In this document: positions 20,364 through 28,958 of the stretch, in pieces
Layout: the number at the start of each line of letters is the position of its first letter
Position numbering within the stretch: the stretch's first letter is position 1
Origin: an uncultured Pelagibacteraceae bacterium
GTDB taxonomy: Bacteria > Pseudomonadota > Alphaproteobacteria > Pelagibacterales > AG-422-B15
Reading direction: 5' to 3'
Assembly: GCA_902554325.1 (NCBI GenBank)
Contig: CACDOH010000010.1
Location: 1 to 35,344, forward strand
Length of the DNA: 35,344 nt
Notes under the pieces: generated by a model
Database searches by the model: none
Told to the model about the DNA's origin: nothing
The model's input: the letters and a program-made list of their open reading frames with translations, nothing else
Translations under genes and position numbers: made by a program

Positions 20364-21329
20364 ATGTCTGAATTGCATAAAATTGTAGTAGGGATTCGCA
20401 GCAGCAACTTATCCAAATCCCAGACTAATCTCCTGATTCAGGAATTGCTCAAACAAGACTCAAAATTGAATAAAGATATCTTCAATATAAAGACAATCAA
20501 AACAACTGGAGATGTCCATAATACGCATCGATTAGACCAAATTGGAGGAAAAGGTCTTTTTATTAAAGAAATTGAGGAACAAATCATATCTGGTAAAATT
20601 GATATTGGCGTACATTCAATGAAAGATGTACCTGCTCAGGAAGCTTATCCAGATCTTGATATTATTTGCTGGATGCAAAGACATAAATCAAACGACGCAT
20701 TAATAAGCAATTCAGGAAAAAGTTTTATGGACTTACCAGCGGGTAGTGTAATTGGCACCAGTTCTATTCGCCGTCGCTCGCAAGTTTTGAGTTTACGAAA
20801 AGATTTATCAATCAAGTTACTAAGAGGCAATGTTGATACACGCATTCAAAAACTGAGAAATCATGAATATGATGCTATCATATTAAGTCTTGCAGGATTA
20901 GCTCGATTAAATTTAGATCATTTAGTTACTGAAGTATTAGATCATAATTTATTTTTACCAGCAGCCTGTCAGGGAGCTGTAGGGGTACAGGCTCTTAAAA
21001 GAAGTGAGGTAAAACAAATATTCGCACCTATTAATGATCTTAAAACTCAAACAGAGTGCATCGCTGAACGAAGAGTTTTAAAAAATATAAATGCAAACTG
21101 CAACAGCCCTGTTTCAATTTATGCGAACATCAACAAAAATAAAATAATGCTTAAATTTGAAATATTTGATCATCAAGGAAATAAAATCTTTGAAAAATTA
21201 AAGGAAGATTTGAAAGAAAACTATTTGAAGTTATGTGATGAACTTAGTGGGGAGATCATTAATGACTTAGGTCAAACAAAAATAAATGAATTGGACAATT
21301 TAAAAAGTGATTTTGATTACACGCCCTAG
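20364..21329 (+). CDS. hemC: Hydroxymethylbilane synthase (porphobilinogen deaminase)
   Basis: HemC joins four porphobilinogens into hydroxymethylbilane for haem synthesis. The 321 residues show IRSSNLSKSQT (11-21), the catalytic Asp88 in HSMKDVP, GTSSIRRRSQ (131-140) with LLRGNVDTR (152-160) for the pyrrole chain, and Cys246 in NANCNSPV, which carries the dipyrromethane cofactor. It overlaps hemD by 23 bases. The usual R-rich substrate-binding loop is present, so activity is expected. Confidence 0.97.
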   Translation: MSELHKIVVGIRSSNLSKSQTNLLIQELLKQDSKLNKDIFNIKTIKTTGDVHNTHRLDQIGGKGLFIKEIEEQIISGKIDIGVHSMKDVPAQEAYPDLDIICWMQRHKSNDALISNSGKSFMDLPAGSVIGTSSIRRRSQVLSLRKDLSIKLLRGNVDTRIQKLRNHEYDAIILSLAGLARLNLDHLVTEVLDHNLFLPAACQGAVGVQALKRSEVKQIFAPINDLKTQTECIAERRVLKNINANCNSPVSIYANINKNKIMLKFEIFDHQGNKIFEKLKEDLKENYLKLCDELSGEIINDLGQTKINELDNLKSDFDYTP

Positions 21330-22020
21330 AAAAAAATCTTTAGAGTTTCAAAAAAGATTAGAAAAATTTAAAATTAATTCTGAGATACAAGAGCTATCAA
21401 AGTTTAAAATCTCTAAAAGACAAGTTTCTTTATTTGATTCTGTAATACTTATTACTAGTCCAAGAACTCTAGACTACCTTGTCAAAACTAAAACTTTAGA
21501 AAGCTGTAAAAAAAATAAATTTATAGTCATTGGGAAAAAAACAACTCAACATCTGAAAAAACTGGGGTGTAAAAAAATACTGATTTCTGCAAAAGATAGC
21601 GCTGACTTAATCAATAAATCTAAATCTATAATAAGTGAAAGAAGTGAAGTGCAATTTTTAAGTTCTAATGTGTACAATAAAGAACTTGTTAGATCTTTAA
21701 AAAAGATGAAATATAAAATTACATTAATTAAAGTTTATGAGACAATTAAAGTCAAAAAATTAAAAAAATCAGTTATAAAGAACTTAAAGAATAATAAATT
21801 CTCTACTGCTGTATTTTTCTCAAAGTTTTCATTTAAGGTTTTTCTCAATCTCTGTAAAATGGAGAAGATTTCAAAATCTTGTCTTAAACATATACAATAT
21901 ATATGTGTCAGTCAGCGTGTTGGCGAATTTGCTGAAAAAACAGGCTATAATGTTCATTATGCAGCCAACCCATCAGAACAAGCAGTATTTGATTTACTTA
22001 GAAATTTGAAACTAAGATAA
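21307..22020 (+). CDS. hemD: Uroporphyrinogen-III synthase
   Basis: HemD closes hydroxymethylbilane to uroporphyrinogen III with inversion of ring D. The family is poorly conserved in sequence; this call rests on the position directly after hemC, the length (237 residues) and the opening ILITRPRKKSLEFQKRLE, typical of the family. Further support comes from VILITSPRTLDYL, FIVIGKKTTQHLKKLG and AVFFSKFSFKVFL in the expected order, and the C-terminal NPSEQAVFDLLRNL. The start is GTG at 21307, inside hemC, which suggests coupled translation. It is very lysine-rich and AT-rich compared with its neighbours. Confidence 0.9.
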   Translation: MILITRPRKKSLEFQKRLEKFKINSEIQELSKFKISKRQVSLFDSVILITSPRTLDYLVKTKTLESCKKNKFIVIGKKTTQHLKKLGCKKILISAKDSADLINKSKSIISERSEVQFLSSNVYNKELVRSLKKMKYKITLIKVYETIKVKKLKKSVIKNLKNNKFSTAVFFSKFSFKVFLNLCKMEKISKSCLKHIQYICVSQRVGEFAEKTGYNVHYAANPSEQAVFDLLRNLKLR

Positions 22021-22104
22021 TAAATCATTAAATTACAATGATTAAGCCCAAATTTAGTGTTTAATAAATAAATTTTATACTTTTATAAAAGCACCTTTAA
22101 TTGC

Positions 22105-22134
22105 TTGACTAAACTTGTTTTATTCAGTTGAATA
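22105..22134 (+). promoter_or_regulatory. Candidate promoter of DUF1302-DUF1329 operon
   Basis: TTGACT (22105-22110) and TGAATA (22129-22134) are 18 bases apart, about 45 bases before the DUF1302 ATG. The 158-base spacer between hemD and this gene is one of the longest in the window and otherwise shows only AT-rich sequence, including the palindrome TTTTATAAAA at 22081-22090. Confidence 0.35.
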
Positions 22135-22163
22135 GGCAAATTAATAAATTGTATTAAGTACAT

Positions 22164-22171
22164 AAGAGGGG
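22164..22171 (+). promoter_or_regulatory. Strong ribosome-binding site of DUF1302 gene
   Basis: AAGAGGGG lies seven bases before the ATG at 22179. It is one of the clearest Shine-Dalgarno sequences in the window, where many genes have none, and fits high expression of an abundant envelope protein. Confidence 0.6.
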
Positions 22172-22178
22172 AATTCAT

Positions 22179-25013
22179 ATGTCACGAAACACTATTTTTA
22201 GTTCATTTGTAAAGTGTCTATTTGTTATATCACTTTTTCAAATGTCTACCATTACTGTTAAAGCTGAGCAGGTAACGCTTGGTGGATTTACAGGAACTCT
22301 AACGACAACTGTGTCATCTGGTCTTGCTATGAGAACAGAAGCTAATGATTGTAAACTTATTTCAGGAGATTCATTAGATCCTGATGGTGCAGGTTTGGAA
22401 GACAGATCATCATTTACAGCTTATGTTGGATATACTGCTGATGATGGAAATGGTGGTTGTAATGTTTACGAAACTGATACATTTGGCAACACGTCATCAA
22501 AAACTATGTCAAGAGTTAACTCAAACCAGGATGATGGTAAATTAAACTTTGGTAGAGGTGACATTTTTGATGGTGGTAACACGCTATCACTAAGTTATTT
22601 TGGTACAAATAGTGGTGGTGTAAGTCTTAACCTATCTGGTACAGCTTACTACAACGCGGCATTAAATCTCAACGATGCAGGTTTCAAGGCATTTACTTCT
22701 GACCAAAAAGATTATTTTGAAAACCAATACAAACTTGGTAACGCTTACATCAGTGCCCCTCTTGATGATAATGTAAGTATTACACTTGGTAATTACATTC
22801 AGTCACAAGGTGTGACAGCTCTTTTACCTATTGGTGTGAACGTTGTTAACCCAGTGAACCTTCCTCTATTACGTTCACCAGGCGCACAATTAAAAGATGC
22901 ATTGCTTCCTCAAGCCATGATCGGTATGACAGCATTCCTTGATGGAGGTATAACTCTAGATGCTTACTATCAACTTGAACAAAAAGAAGTTGAAATTGAT
23001 GCAGCTGGATCGTTTTATGGTAGTGACTTTGTTGGCAAGTATTCAAATACAGACTTGATGAATTCACCAAACTACAGAGAGGATAAAAATATTCCTTTTG
23101 CTGGAAACTATCACGACGCGGCAACATGCTTCTCTGACGGTATAACTGGTCAATGTATTGACTCTCAATTATGGGCTGGACTCGAAACTGATGGTTCCGG
23201 TGTGCCAACTGCTAGTGGAGAAAGCGCTGGTTACTTAAACTATTATGGACTCGGTGCTGGTGGAACAGCTGACTTACTTGCAGGTTGGAACTTATTAAAC
23301 AATTATAATATTTCTCTTGTATCAGATGCTACTGATCTTGACAGCTTAATTACTAATTCATTGGCTAGTGCAGCTGGTGCAACGACCTTAATTTCTGGAC
23401 CGGGTGCGCAAAATTTTGCTGTCACTTTAACTGATGACCAAATTAATGGTTCACTATTAAGACTATACACTCAGTGGAGAGGTGTTGGTGCAACTTCTGG
23501 TTTGGTATCTGTAGCACGTGCTGCTGACGTCGAAGCCGATGATAGCGGTCAGTACGGTTTGAACTTATCAGGATACATTGATGATCTTGGTCAAGGAGTT
23601 GAGTGGGGACTGTATTTTAATAACTCGCACTCAAATGCCCCAAGAGTAAGATTCTTATCAATAGCTGATGGATATGCTTCCACACTTTATTCAATGTATG
23701 CCATTCAGGATGGAGCTAAAGATTACGTAGACGGTCAGGACCCTACTGCGTTTGAACAGTATCAAGCATCTGTTGCTTATGGCGCATTAATTTGTGGAGT
23801 TGTTTATAAAGGCTTAGCTGGAGCAGCGGCCCCTTATGGTACTTTCTCAAATGCAGCTGCTGGAAGTTCAACAGCATCATATTTGCATGATCCTGAAAAA
23901 TGTTATGCAACTATAGATACAATGGCTACAGCTGGTGGAGAAGATATCTATGCAGCTCAAATACTTGGTCTAACAGAAACTATGCATAAAAGTGAGGCTG
24001 CTGCAGTTACTGCAACTAAATTAGCTGCCCATGCACAAGCTACAGGCGCAACTAATGGTGCTATAGCAACTCTTGGATTTGGTAACGCTGCTAGATATCA
24101 GCTTTACTATCCTGAGGACATTCAAACATTCGGTGCTTCACTTTCAACTGGAGTGGGTTCGTGGGTAACAAACTACGAAATTGCTTACAGACCTGACTTC
24201 CCGTTCCAAATCGCAGTACCTCAATTATTGTTAAATGTTTACGACTCAACTGGTGGTACTATGATTCAGAACTTAACTAGCTTTGCTGGAGCTACTACTG
24301 CTCAACAAGTAGCAATCGCTTCTGCTAATGGTGTATCACTCAATAAATGGTCATCTCAACCTAACTGTGATATCTCATCTGCAACTGGTGAAATGTCTAC
24401 AGTAATGTCTGGTTATGCAGTTTGTGATGGAACAGCTGAGTTCGATGCTTGGTCGTTCGATTTCAATGCAGCTAGATCATTTACTGGTTCAGACCCGATT
24501 GCTAAAAACGCAGGTGCTGATGGTGGTTTTGTTCTTATAGAAATCGGTGGGGTTTACATACCTGATATAGATTCAAAACAAGGACTGGTTTCTACAAACC
24601 ATCAATCCTTCGGACATGATAATTATGGTGGAGGATGTTTAGACATTGCAGGTACATCTAAATTAGCGGTGCAGAGTAACGCACTTTTTGGTGATGGTTA
24701 TTGTGAAAATTCATCAGAGGCTGATAACTTAGCAATGACCAGTCGCGTAAGAGCTGGCTTGAATTACTTTAACTTCAATAATACTCCGTGGACTTTCTCA
24801 CCATCATTTGGCTTAAACTACGACTTCCTTGGTAATGGAGCTTCATCGTTAGGTGGATATGTTGAAGATGAAATGAGCCTTACACTTGGTAGTTCTTTCA
24901 CCAACGGTGGAACGTCTGTATCATTAAACTATGTTGCTGAACTTGGTGATTATCAAGACAACTCTGCTTCTGACAGAGATTATCTGTCAGCAACTTTATC
25001 ACATGCATTTTAA
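22179..25013 (+). CDS. Large DUF1302 outer-membrane-type protein
   Basis: The 944 residues begin with a signal peptide (cleavage near Ala29) and read as a DUF1302 protein. GKLNFGRGDIFDGG (120-133), then GVNVVNPVNLPLLRSPG (219-235), LPQAMIGMTAFLDGGITLDAYYQ (spanning about 243-265) and GQYGLNLSGYIDDLGQGVEWG (457-477) match the family's ordered motifs. The C-terminal 90 residues are amphipathic strands ending in HAF, consistent with an outer-membrane barrel. It is longer than the 550-700 residues I expect; insertions rich in Ala, Gly and Thr lie around 330-450 and 500-640. Ten mature-region Cys fall in five successive pairs (58/94, 317/326, 539/575, 730/749, 820/842). DUF1302 proteins usually pair with DUF1329, as here, and are suspected of handling lipids or hydrophobic compounds; molecular function is not known. 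Confidence 0.85.
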   Translation: MSRNTIFSSFVKCLFVISLFQMSTITVKAEQVTLGGFTGTLTTTVSSGLAMRTEANDCKLISGDSLDPDGAGLEDRSSFTAYVGYTADDGNGGCNVYETDTFGNTSSKTMSRVNSNQDDGKLNFGRGDIFDGGNTLSLSYFGTNSGGVSLNLSGTAYYNAALNLNDAGFKAFTSDQKDYFENQYKLGNAYISAPLDDNVSITLGNYIQSQGVTALLPIGVNVVNPVNLPLLRSPGAQLKDALLPQAMIGMTAFLDGGITLDAYYQLEQKEVEIDAAGSFYGSDFVGKYSNTDLMNSPNYREDKNIPFAGNYHDAATCFSDGITGQCIDSQLWAGLETDGSGVPTASGESAGYLNYYGLGAGGTADLLAGWNLLNNYNISLVSDATDLDSLITNSLASAAGATTLISGPGAQNFAVTLTDDQINGSLLRLYTQWRGVGATSGLVSVARAADVEADDSGQYGLNLSGYIDDLGQGVEWGLYFNNSHSNAPRVRFLSIADGYASTLYSMYAIQDGAKDYVDGQDPTAFEQYQASVAYGALICGVVYKGLAGAAAPYGTFSNAAAGSSTASYLHDPEKCYATIDTMATAGGEDIYAAQILGLTETMHKSEAAAVTATKLAAHAQATGATNGAIATLGFGNAARYQLYYPEDIQTFGASLSTGVGSWVTNYEIAYRPDFPFQIAVPQLLLNVYDSTGGTMIQNLTSFAGATTAQQVAIASANGVSLNKWSSQPNCDISSATGEMSTVMSGYAVCDGTAEFDAWSFDFNAARSFTGSDPIAKNAGADGGFVLIEIGGVYIPDIDSKQGLVSTNHQSFGHDNYGGGCLDIAGTSKLAVQSNALFGDGYCENSSEADNLAMTSRVRAGLNYFNFNNTPWTFSPSFGLNYDFLGNGASSLGGYVEDEMSLTLGSSFTNGGTSVSLNYVAELGDYQDNSASDRDYLSATLSHAF

Positions 25014-25031
25014 TTAAGGGAAGGTAGAATA

Positions 25032-26261
25032 ATGTATAAAATGAACATTAAAAAACTAATAATAACACTAACGTCTGTGTTGGCATTTTCAGTATCGTCT
25101 GCATCTGCTGACGGACATATTAAATACTCTGTTACATCAGACAATTATTCAGAATATGCTGATATGTTAACTCCAGGTATGATAACTATGTTTTCTGCTT
25201 ACCCTGATACTTTCCGAATGGATGTATATGAGTCTGGTGGTAGATGTACAATGGACTCATCTATCATGGCCATTAGTAATTCAAATGGTACTATGATTAA
25301 CGATAATGAGGGACTTGAGTTGCCAAATATGGGGCAAATACCTTTTCCTGATCCCTCTCACGCTCAACACTATGTATGGAATTACAGAATGTTTGCAGGA
25401 TCAGTTAGTGCAGTTGATAGAATACAAACTTCAGCTCGTGTAACTGCTGATGGAGCTATAACGACAGGTCAACAGGAAACTTCAATTTCTTTTCCTGTAA
25501 ATCCAAATACAAAAACAATGTATGCAGATAAGAATATATTTGCATTGTTTATGCAAAAGAACTTAGGCCCACCAAGAACTGCGGGTACAGTGACACTCGT
25601 GCATGACTTCATAGATAGCTACATGCAACCGCGTAAAGCTTGGCAATACAACCCGGCTACTCGTAGAGTAAGAAGAGCACCAGATATTTCTTATGACTCA
25701 CTTACAGCTGCAGGTGGCGGTATTCAAACGATCGACTCTTATGGTGGCTTTAATGGTGCACAGGACAAGTATGACTGGTCTTATGAGGGCATGAAAAAAA
25801 TGATCGTTCCTAATAATAACGATATGCTTGCAGACTCAACTCTTGAAAATACTTTTGTACCTAATCATCCAAATCCGGATGTTGTTCGTTTTGAGGAGAT
25901 GGACGCTCATATTATCCATGCACAACTAAAACCTGGTCAAAGGCATCTATATGAGTCTAGAACTTTCTACTTCATGGATGGTAACCCAGGAATGCTTCTT
26001 TATCATGACATGTATGATGGCAATGGTGATTTAATGCGCGCAAGTTTCCAAACAACTGTTCAAGGTAACATGGGTGGTCAAGGTCTAGAAGACACTACAT
26101 GTAACCCTCAAGGTGAATATACTTTTGACTTTGCAACGAGAACTTATGTTGGAACTAACTTGTTTGGTCCTGCAATGCAACCTCGCGGAGCAATCTATAA
26201 TGGTGAAGAAAAAGCAGTTAGCTTCTATACACCAGATGGTCTCAGAAGATACGCAAGGTAA
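25032..26261 (+). CDS. DUF1329 periplasmic protein (LolA/LolB-like fold family)
   Basis: The 409 residues start with a signal peptide (cleavage near Ala26). The diagnostic DUF1329 core is present: MQPRKAWQYNPATRRVRRAP, then ISYDSLTAAGG, YGGFNGAQDKYDW and KKMIVPNN (about 196-275). Later segments include HIIHAQLKPGQRHLYESRTFY and DGNGDLMRASFQ. The family is grouped with LolA/LolB-type lipid-binding half-barrels and travels with DUF1302, so a periplasmic carrier role for a hydrophobic ligand is plausible but unproven. The first ATG at 25032 is favoured over the second (four codons on) because AAGG lies seven bases upstream of it. Two mature Cys are present. It is 18 bases after the DUF1302 stop and is followed by a strong terminator. 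Confidence 0.88.
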   Translation: MYKMNIKKLIITLTSVLAFSVSSASADGHIKYSVTSDNYSEYADMLTPGMITMFSAYPDTFRMDVYESGGRCTMDSSIMAISNSNGTMINDNEGLELPNMGQIPFPDPSHAQHYVWNYRMFAGSVSAVDRIQTSARVTADGAITTGQQETSISFPVNPNTKTMYADKNIFALFMQKNLGPPRTAGTVTLVHDFIDSYMQPRKAWQYNPATRRVRRAPDISYDSLTAAGGGIQTIDSYGGFNGAQDKYDWSYEGMKKMIVPNNNDMLADSTLENTFVPNHPNPDVVRFEEMDAHIIHAQLKPGQRHLYESRTFYFMDGNPGMLLYHDMYDGNGDLMRASFQTTVQGNMGGQGLEDTTCNPQGEYTFDFATRTYVGTNLFGPAMQPRGAIYNGEEKAVSFYTPDGLRRYAR

Positions 26262-26290
26262 AGTACTTTACCTCTAATAAAACTTAACAT

Positions 26291-26324
26291 AAAACCCGAC
26301 TTGAATTTTTTAAGTCGGGTTTTA
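26291..26324 (+). terminator. Rho-independent terminator after DUF1329
   Basis: A perfect 12-base stem pairs AAAACCCGACTT (26291-26302) with AAGTCGGGTTTT (26312-26323) around a nine-base loop, followed by T-rich sequence. It begins 30 bases after the DUF1329 stop and ends only 17 bases before the next start codon, so the downstream gene has little room for its own promoter. Confidence 0.9.
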
Positions 26325-26340
26325 ATTTATTGAAAACAAT

Positions 26341-27471
26341 ATGTTGCGCATACTATCCATCTTATTCACTTTTTTATTTCTCAATGTAAGTTCAGTCTCT
26401 TCATCGAACTTTAACTATGGATCAGGTTTTGCAGCTAAATCAGTGCTAGCATCGCAGTCTCTAATTAATGCAATGGATAAAGTCGATAATAGAATTTATG
26501 CAGTCGGAGAGCATGGAATAATTTTGTATTCAGATGATTTTGGTGACAGTTGGGTTCAAGCTGAAAGTGTGCCCTATACAAGCACATTGACTGATATCAG
26601 TTGCTCAAGTAAGCAATCGTGCTGGGCAACTGGTCATGATGCAACCATTCTTCATTCAAACGATTTTGGCAAAACCTGGATCAAGCAATACGAAGATTTA
26701 GATTGGGATGCACCACTACTTTCAATACATATGTTTGATGATAAGGAGGGAATTGCAATAGGTGCGTTCGCCCTTTCGTTAAGAACAGAAGATGGAGGTC
26801 AGACATGGGGATACTTATTTCTTGATGATGATGAGTTCCAACCTCATCTAAATTTTACCTACGCTGATGCTCAAATTTGGAGGAAGTCAGCTCAAAATGA
26901 AGTTTATGCTGTAGGAGAGTTAGGAAAATATTATATTTCAGATGATAGAGGGTTAAACTGGCTTGCAGTAAATACTTCTTACGATGGTTCATATTGGGCG
27001 GGAATAAAAGTTGATGATGGACAGTCTCTTCTTCTAGGGATGTCTGGTAATCTAACCCTAATTACACAGTATGGACAAGATGAGAAAATACCAGGTGATG
27101 CAATTACAACATTAGCTTGTTATGAAAGTGGTTATTTTTCAGGTGAATGTAAGACTCTAGGTTTTAAAAAGTTATATATAGGTTCAAAAAATAGTTTAAC
27201 TAATGCTGTTACTCTTGATGACGGACGTATTGCAATGAGTGGCAATGGAGGAGCGATTTCAATAATTGATCTATATAGAAAAAAAAATATTGAAACATGT
27301 GTGAGGTCTGATCGTTTAAGTAATACCTCTGTTGTATATTTAGGAAGTGATGAATTTTTGCTAGCGGGAGAGAATGGTTTTAGAAAGCATAGTATGTCTG
27401 AATGCTATAATAATTATTCATCAGAAGACTCAAGTTCTCAGGATAGTTACTTTAAATTAGATTTAGGATAA
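26341..27471 (+). CDS. Ycf48/BNR-repeat beta-propeller protein, exported
   Basis: A signal peptide (MLRILSILFTFLFLNVSSVSS) is followed by a repeat protein of 376 residues in total. Four Asp-box motifs are visible: SDDFGDSW, SNDFGKTW, TEDGGQTW and SDDRGLNW. Each is preceded by a strand such as YAVGEHGIILY, WATGHDATILH or YAVGELGKYYI, and two further partial repeats lie near the C-terminus (AMSGNGGAIS, LAGENGFRKH). This is the Ycf48/Hcf136-like seven-bladed propeller family. In non-photosynthetic proteobacteria such genes neighbour DUF1302, DUF1329 and MMPL permease genes; the role may be scaffolding in the periplasm. No Shine-Dalgarno sequence is obvious. It is one base from the SDR start, so it heads the downstream run. 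Confidence 0.85.
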   Translation: MLRILSILFTFLFLNVSSVSSSNFNYGSGFAAKSVLASQSLINAMDKVDNRIYAVGEHGIILYSDDFGDSWVQAESVPYTSTLTDISCSSKQSCWATGHDATILHSNDFGKTWIKQYEDLDWDAPLLSIHMFDDKEGIAIGAFALSLRTEDGGQTWGYLFLDDDEFQPHLNFTYADAQIWRKSAQNEVYAVGELGKYYISDDRGLNWLAVNTSYDGSYWAGIKVDDGQSLLLGMSGNLTLITQYGQDEKIPGDAITTLACYESGYFSGECKTLGFKKLYIGSKNSLTNAVTLDDGRIAMSGNGGAISIIDLYRKKNIETCVRSDRLSNTSVVYLGSDEFLLAGENGFRKHSMSECYNNYSSEDSSSQDSYFKLDLG

Positions 27472-27472
27472 A

Positions 27473-28243
27473 ATGGGGCGGGTACAGGACAAAGTTGCAA
27501 TTATCACTGGTGCAGCTTCTGGACTTGGATTTGCTGCAGCTCGTATGCTTCTCAAAGAAGGAGCAAAAGTAGTATTAACTGACGTAAATCGTGAAGTATT
27601 AGACTCAATGCCAGATCGCTTGAATGATTTTAGTCAGTCTCAATTCCAAACTTTATATCATGATGTAACTCAAGAAGACTCTTGGGTTGAATTAATAAAT
27701 AAAGCAGAGAACGATCAAGGAAAAATAAATATTTTAGTAAATAGTGCTGGGATTAGTTTAGGTGCTGATGTTGTGTCAACTGATTTTGATGTTTGGAAAA
27801 AAGTACACAACGTAAATCTTGATAGTGTTTTTCTTGGCAGTAAGTATGCAGTTCCAATAATGGGTAAATATGGACATGGTTCCATTATTAATATTTCGTC
27901 AATTTCTGGTATTGTTGCGGGGTGGAATACAGCTGCCTATAATTCATCTAAAGCAGGCGTACGTCACCTCTCTAAATCAGTAGCTCTATTTTGTGCTAAA
28001 AAAGGTTATGATGTGAGATGCAATTCAATTCATCCTGCCTTTGTAAATACGCCCATTCTTGACCCAATAAAGCAAGCTTTTGGTGAGGCTGAAGCTGTTG
28101 CTAAATTATCAAGGCAAATTCCAATGAATAAGATTGGTGATACAGATGACGTCTCTTACGCCATTTTATATTTGGCATCAGAGGAGTCTAAATTTATGAC
28201 AGGGTCAGAGATTGTACTTGATGGTGGCCTAAGCGCAATGTAG
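27473..28243 (+). CDS. Short-chain dehydrogenase/reductase
   Basis: This is a 256-residue classical SDR. The cofactor motif is TGAASGLG (12-19), and Asp37 after the second strand (LTDVN) points to NAD(H) rather than NADP(H). NSAG is at 90-93, and the catalytic residues are Ser142/143, Tyr156 and Lys160 in YNSSK. The PAFVNTPI segment and the C-terminal GSEIVLDGGLSAM complete the fold. It resembles 3-hydroxysteroid or cyclic-alcohol dehydrogenases, but the substrate cannot be read from sequence. AGGA sits upstream of the ATG, inside the end of the Ycf48-like gene. Confidence 0.92.
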   Translation: MGRVQDKVAIITGAASGLGFAAARMLLKEGAKVVLTDVNREVLDSMPDRLNDFSQSQFQTLYHDVTQEDSWVELINKAENDQGKINILVNSAGISLGADVVSTDFDVWKKVHNVNLDSVFLGSKYAVPIMGKYGHGSIINISSISGIVAGWNTAAYNSSKAGVRHLSKSVALFCAKKGYDVRCNSIHPAFVNTPILDPIKQAFGEAEAVAKLSRQIPMNKIGDTDDVSYAILYLASEESKFMTGSEIVLDGGLSAM

Positions 28244-28259: not shown

Positions 28260-28958
28260 ATGAATAAAAAAACTGCATTAATGGTCGTTCATCAACCAAG
28301 ATCAAGCACTGGTGATGTTGGTATTAAATTAAGAAAGCGTGGCTTCACGCTGGATGTCAGAAGACCAGTAATTGGTGAAAAGCTTCCAGAAAATATGGAT
28401 GAGCATGATTTAGCGGTCATCTATGGTGGACCACCGAGTGCTAATGATGATCTTGATTACATAAAATACGAGATAGACTGGATTTCCAAAGTACTCGAGT
28501 CCAATAAGCCGTTTCTGGGAATATGTTTAGGTGCTCAAATGCTGGCTAAGAACCTTGGTGGGACAGTTCAAAAATCCCATGACCTTACACTTGAAATTGG
28601 TTTTTTTGACATTAATCCCACAGGAGACGGTCATAAGATGTTCCAAAGTCAGAAAAAGTTTTTTCAGTGGCACCGAGAAGGTTTTACTGTGCCCCAGTCA
28701 TGCGAAATTCTTGCTAATGGAGATCTATTTAGAGAGCAGGCATTCCGTTATAAAAATGCTTTAGCTATTCAATTTCATCCTGAGGTTAATTTAAAGATGC
28801 ATCTTCGATGGCTATACTACGCAGGCTACATGTTAAAAGAAAAAGGTGCGCAAAATAGACGTGAACAACTTACGCATCGACTTAAACATGGAAAAAAAAT
28901 AAATTTGTGGTTAGACTCTTTTTTAGATAACTACTTATTGAAAGATATTAAAACATGA
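28260..28958 (+). CDS. Class I glutamine amidotransferase (GATase1), stand-alone
   Basis: The 232 residues are one class I amidotransferase domain. The nucleophile is Cys89 in FLGICLGAQ, and the catalytic pair is His173/Glu175 in QFHPEVN. VIYGGPPSANDD (53-64) is the oxyanion-side glycine motif. The relatives are stand-alone GuaA-N-like amidotransferases of unknown acceptor; no synthetase partner is adjacent. It lies 16 bases after the SDR and overlaps yggT by four bases (ATGA). The link with the SDR may be only positional. Confidence 0.9.
   Translation: MNKKTALMVVHQPRSSTGDVGIKLRKRGFTLDVRRPVIGEKLPENMDEHDLAVIYGGPPSANDDLDYIKYEIDWISKVLESNKPFLGICLGAQMLAKNLGGTVQKSHDLTLEIGFFDINPTGDGHKMFQSQKKFFQWHREGFTVPQSCEILANGDLFREQAFRYKNALAIQFHPEVNLKMHLRWLYYAGYMLKEKGAQNRREQLTHRLKHGKKINLWLDSFLDNYLLKDIKT

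Follow-up and report, generated by a model that had tools for sequence, protein, structure and literature searches.

We examined three adjacent genes for envelope proteins, coding for a DUF1302 protein, a DUF1329 protein and a Ycf48-like propeller, in a stretch of 35,344 nucleotides (contig CACDOH010000010.1, positions 1 to 35,344 of the forward strand; hereafter the window), and compared them with AmeABCD and related transport systems. The source organism is a SAR11-like alphaproteobacterium, whose assembly (G000) comprises 1.17 Mb in 37 contigs and is 79% complete. In its nearest named relatives, single-cell genomes designated 'Pelagibacteraceae bacterium' at NCBI (Alphaproteobacteria), DUF1329 was 97% identical. 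An assignment to SAR86 was considered and rejected, since these relatives, the gene order (gpsA-tsaD, hemC-hemD) and a split PntA put the organism in Candidatus Pelagibacteraceae. An earlier note on this DNA had described the three genes in this order, and their open reading frames (ORFs) were present at exactly the positions first given, with strong Pfam scores. The features of the region are:

21328..24778, no strand: block of hemD and most of DUF1302 in which blastn of the window against the near relative L157 detected no match
22165..22172, + strand: Shine-Dalgarno sequence AGAGGGGA of the DUF1302 gene, read from the sequence, 6 nt upstream of the DUF1302 ATG
22179..25013, + strand: DUF1302 outer-membrane protein, AmeA-like, 944 aa (PF06980, E=4.7e-77, residues 22-944; C-terminal Phe)
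25032..26261, + strand: DUF1329 periplasmic protein, AmeB-like, LolA fold, 409 aa (PF07044, E=1.3e-81)
26290..26324, + strand: strong predicted intrinsic terminator between the DUF1329 and propeller genes, 16 pairs with a T-rich tail, the best terminator-like site in the region
26341..27471, + strand: Ycf48/BNR propeller, AmeC-like, 376 aa (PF14870, PSII_BNR/Ycf48, E=2.4e-15; solved Ycf48 chains, E=3e-14)
27473..28243, + strand: short-chain dehydrogenase/reductase (SDR) oxidoreductase, a conserved neighbor (PF13561, E=5.6e-59)
28260..28958, + strand: class-I glutamine amidotransferase (GATase), last of a conserved five-gene set (PF00117, E=1.2e-19)

The N-termini of DUF1302, DUF1329 and the propeller resembled Sec signal peptides as judged by eye, in agreement with the earlier note. 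No RND/MMPL gene was found near the three genes. The earlier note had left the permease 'elsewhere or absent'; it is not absent, and was located on another contig (C4) of the same genome, in which MMPL domains are present. This AmeD-like HAE3/MMPL protein of 895 aa (G000:C4:34492-37176) matched the HAE3 model TIGR00921 with E=4.8e-55, yet remained under the model cut-off of 352 bits. As a reference we used the annotated DUF1302-DUF1329-YCF48-MMPL cassette of the P. aeruginosa plasmid pPAMH19, whose MMPL protein, as query, matched the C4 protein with E=6e-126 and the next paralog with 2e-12; the C4 permease also sits within the AmeD-like tree. Two other MMPL paralogs were considered as partners and rejected, one of ~810 aa at a contig edge on C24 and one of ~762 aa whose gene, in relatives, adjoins a LolA-like gene: both gave much weaker matches and fell outside the AmeD-like tree. 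The C4-type permease gene is divergent to a gene for an AurF-like diiron oxygenase (PF11583, L034:5071-9180), and AurF-like genes lay divergently beside several unlinked permeases in five families (its own and f4, f10, f104 and f44) and beside none of the linked ones.

Several further loci were observed. In L034, two genes for a sensor kinase and a regulator, which by eye look RegB/RegA-like, lie close to the AurF-permease locus. In a P. aeruginosa plasmid (L237, NZ_LN809998.1 17470-32561), a full DUF1302-DUF1329-YCF48-MMPL cassette has sterol-desaturase/SDR genes on one side and a mercury-resistance operon on the other. In relatives (L091:7991-12271), an MMPL protein of 762 aa is encoded together with a LolA_like protein (PF17131) and a protein of 396 aa whose family is unknown, at a locus similar to TOL_3187/TOL_3188 of Thalassolituus, which is induced on C28 alkane (PMC6304351); it was not found in the window's own genome, which is incomplete. 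That genome has a second, orphan DUF1329 gene (G000:C1:100830-101912; L086:8813-10093, - strand), conserved in the family (L179-L189) and adjoining N-formylglutamate amidohydrolase-like and alpha/beta-hydrolase genes. A second DUF1302 gene of G005 (1144 aa, L104:8647-12081, - strand) had no DUF1329 or propeller gene adjoining, and the cassette DUF1329 of the family was without a ~50-60-residue N-terminal segment (LGxxLTPxGAxKAGN...IPxWxGG) found in the copies of other bacteria.

The families of the three window genes and of the C4 permease are known from described systems. AmeABCD of Castellaniella defragrans is a tetrapartite RND transporter, and its deletion leads to lower monoterpene tolerance and more Nile Red accumulation (PMC6394551). 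The same four families are found here: a DUF1302 outer-membrane protein, a DUF1329 protein of the LolA superfamily, a COG4447/Ycf48-like protein (membership of the propeller was tested via PF14870) and an HAE3 RND permease. The differences are that the permease gene has a locus of its own, whereas all four genes form one cassette in the AmeD lineage (PMC6394551), that DUF1302 has 944 aa with two extra long loops versus 605 aa, and that SDR and GATase genes follow the cassette. In P. putida (PMC10866462), a DUF1302/DUF1329 pair (PP_0765/PP_0766) likewise lies apart from an RND pair (PP_2018/PP_2019), with a shared Tween 20 fitness phenotype and predicted contacts; as described there, its second locus has a periplasmic protein beside the permease, whereas here the propeller is with DUF1302-DUF1329 and the permease beside the AurF-like gene. 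A third example is the 'Nanopod' cluster of the Desulfobacterota organism ORM2a, in which DUF1329, YCF48 and MMPL are encoded together and proteomics placed DUF1329 far above the other two (PMC13101534); it shares this set with our organism, but has a linked permease and a proposed link to benzene. The suggestion in the earlier note of an envelope system for hydrophobic substrates is supported, and its candidate for an undescribed system has to be given up, as AmeABCD and the P. putida system are already published. The window genes are the AmeABC set of a variant that would work like these two systems without the single-cassette feature.

The genes are conserved as a unit within the family. 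The order DUF1302-DUF1329-BNR-SDR-GATase was kept in 20/20 family loci with near-full-length DUF1302, these being the loci with the longest DUF1302 ORFs, and GATase followed SDR in the inspected family loci that extend that far. In the family of 53 genomes, DUF1302 was detected in 46, DUF1329 in 50 and PSII_BNR in 46. Order-wide, DUF1302 was confined to the window's own family (36 genomes, versus 0/157 in other families), and both DUF1302 and the AmeD-like MMPL were missing from 157/157 order genomes outside it. Among 198 genomes of the order, 32 had both DUF1302 and the AmeD-like permease, 4 had DUF1302 alone, 5 the permease alone and 157 neither; among 241 genomes of the class, the corresponding numbers were 32, 8, 4 and 197. 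The earlier note had named unrelated folds or a lack of co-occurrence as findings that would speak against it; neither was obtained. The three genes occur together in relatives and have remained neighbors.

With a probability of roughly 0.6, we consider that the window genes encode the outer half of a trans-envelope transporter of the AmeABCD type, whose genes are kept at two loci. Several points weigh against this interpretation. The Fisher tests by which the above counts were assessed carry no correction for phylogeny; the permease occurs without DUF1302 in G067, G094 and G012, and DUF1302 without the permease in f14 genomes. The orphan DUF1329 is closer than the window copy to the cassette DUF1329s of other bacteria, which makes it uncertain which carrier the permease uses. 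Finally, in the DUF1302 and DUF1329 trees, which have long branches, the family is not grouped with other alphaproteobacteria of the split type.

A structural model of DUF1302 built from 36 sequences (predicted local distance difference test score, pLDDT, 71; predicted template modeling score, pTM, 0.75) had a porin-type barrel, with ~18 strands by our own count. It matched the OprD/Occ porins in fold (Z ~21), the closest being OccK2 (Z 21.4, 311 residues, 3.5 Å), and differed from them in sequence (8-12% identity; Pfam reports DUF1302 only) and in its much longer loops, which span residues 266-443 and 496-640 and, judging from the order of the strands, are probably extracellular. The DUF1329 model (pLDDT 84) resembled LolA in residues 108-409 (Z 19.3 against 9tp6, LolA3, and 18.0 against 4z48, a DUF1329 protein). 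Single-sequence searches of solved structures with DUF1302 or DUF1329 gave no match, and a profile search gave weak LolA-like matches and nothing else. The propeller scored 52.5 bits against the Ycf48 photosystem II assembly factor NF010237, under its equivalog cut-off of 326 bits. For the SDR, the nearest solved structures were an R-specific alcohol dehydrogenase and a 3-alpha/20-beta-hydroxysteroid dehydrogenase, and the score against the equivalog NF005473 (PRK07069) was 329.9 bits, just short of the cut-off of 339 bits.

A porin-type fold would also suit a porin-carrier pair that imports a hydrophobic nutrient without the C4 permease: DUF1302 would admit the compound, DUF1329 carry it through the periplasm and the cytoplasmic SDR start its breakdown, while the C4 permease has a separate job. 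DUF1302-DUF1329 pairs without Ycf48 or MMPL indeed occur in aromatic-degradation clusters (e.g. in Zoogloea) and in some genomes of the class (L071, L078), and loss of DUF1329 hampers growth of Delftia on phenanthrene, as cited in PMC13101534. We regard this as rather unlikely, because DUF1302 co-occurs strongly with the AmeD-like permease in both the order and the class and because the propeller, which is also present in permease-bearing cassettes, is retained here. In the two-locus transporter that we prefer, DUF1302 would be a substrate-selective outer-membrane porin, DUF1329 a LolA-fold periplasmic carrier shielding a hydrophobic or acyl compound, and the Ycf48-like propeller a factor that serves assembly or acts as an adaptor and is required at lower levels. 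The HAE3/MMPL permease from C4, driven by protons, would power movement of the hydrophobic compound between the inner membrane and the cell surface. These parts would interact physically, and the permease, the carrier and the porin may pass the cargo among them; as for AmeD, the transport would most likely be outward or extract the cargo from the membrane. In the cytoplasm, the SDR probably acts on the cargo in its alcohol or ketone form, by oxidation or reduction. This enzyme, which the earlier note had placed downstream, was 65-81% identical among more distant family members and ~50% identical in three unrelated, split-type alphaproteobacterial families. Its gene starts 1 nt past the propeller stop codon, a spacing that makes the two genes look translationally coupled.

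The split arrangement is not peculiar to this genome. The permease was also unlinked in the relatives compared, and Alphaproteobacteria contain both linked cassettes (e.g. L072, L075, L069) and split ones (L079-L081, L083, L085). The closest homologs of the C4 permease are other unlinked permeases, mostly from alphaproteobacteria with genomes of 2-4 Mb. It belongs to a 19-row clade with support 100, in which 18 rows are unlinked and 1 is linked; clade members outside the window's own family have genomes of ~1.7-3.8 Mb. Split-type DUF1302s, including those of the family, have two long loops of ~107-178 and 133-188 residues, longer in L085, versus ~52-75 and 10-36 residues in linked DUF1302s; the two L079 DUF1302s are exceptions to this pattern. 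The permease tree and the long loops common to split-type DUF1302s support a single origin of the split state. The propeller tree, in which the split rows are set apart from the others with a weak support of 65, favors it weakly, and the trees of DUF1302 and DUF1329 give it no support. The earlier note had described the split in the setting of a streamlined genome; streamlining did not cause it, because the split form is also found in genomes of 2-4 Mb and the permeases are one clade.

The terminator occupied the same position in all 19 sequences of the alignment, one of which (L165) has a paired change, and gammaproteobacterial cassettes have similar hairpins of different sequence at the analogous spot. 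The three genes are thus not a simple single expression unit, and the idea that the strong ribosome-binding site points to high expression of the whole unit is not supported, as a conserved terminator precedes the propeller gene. Porin and carrier would be produced at higher levels than the propeller and the products of the genes behind it, which fits the ORM2a proteome, in which DUF1329 greatly exceeds YCF48 and MMPL.

The porin gene itself is unusually variable. The block of hemD and most of DUF1302 is bounded by flanks that are 88% (up to 21327) and 91% (from 24779 on) identical to L157 at the nucleotide level; protein identities to L157 were 89% for hemC, 30% for hemD, 34% for DUF1302, 94% for DUF1329, 92% for the propeller and 96% for the SDR. 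L159 shows the opposite pattern (DUF1302 81%, DUF1329 79%). The permease was 98% identical in both G015 and G013, with DUF1329 at 95% and 91% and DUF1302 at 33% and 47%, respectively. Across the compared loci, Spearman correlation was 0.01 between DUF1302 and DUF1329 identities and 0.79 between DUF1329 and propeller identities, the pairs being non-independent and one locus pair being the same sequence twice. Approximately unbiased (AU) tests rejected the exchanged groupings both ways (p ~1e-62 and ~1e-7), for groups picked after seeing the data. The region appears as a recombination hotspot (window 21328-24778 with L157, L158, L159, L160, L163, L175 and L176), in which otherwise near-identical relatives have DUF1302 alleles that are about a third to half identical and downstream flanking genes that are at least 90% identical. 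Elsewhere in the window, an autotransporter-type beta-domain protein (PF03797; 34065-35333, - strand) has two near-identical N-terminal repeats (SLGVLTGGSSS...SDGSVIVGYSG).

This variability also bears on the possibility that the genes move an endogenous envelope lipid to the outer membrane, in an HpnN- or Lol-like manner and with no external compound. The LolA fold of DUF1329, the inclusion of the hopanoid transporter HpnN among HAE3 permeases (PMC6394551) and the housekeeping-like retention of the genes in nearly all family members would agree with such a role. We nevertheless consider it quite improbable: the C4 permease scored 57.3 bits against the HpnN model TIGR03480, far below the cut-off of 751.85 bits, characterized relatives affect growth with external hydrophobic compounds, and the hypervariability of the porin gene is out of keeping with a housekeeping exporter of lipids. 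The simplest reading of the variable block is in-place replacement by homologous recombination, and genomic islands in which surface structures are replaced are already known (PMC4033161, PMC3782348). We tentatively propose, as a possibility still short of an even chance, that the DUF1302 porin is a swappable surface module of a conserved Ame-type transporter, replaced between conserved flanks as a phage receptor or as the part that sets substrate range, with periplasmic and inner-membrane partners kept constant. Phage pressure may be the force behind the replacement.

DUF1302 and DUF1329 are still of 'unknown function' in Pfam, though fitness and deletion data link both to hydrophobic compounds. 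The split alphaproteobacterial form narrows the search for the cargo in three ways, through a candidate for the partner permease, through a second locus that is conserved (AurF-like gene plus MMPL) and through a conserved SDR. These streamlined marine bacteria have an Ame-type system that none of the 157 genomes sampled from elsewhere in the order shares, which points to a niche with a hydrophobic substrate. In addition, in-place swapping of DUF1302 suggests that phage-driven diversification of SAR11-like cells may act on the porin as well as on the O-chain.

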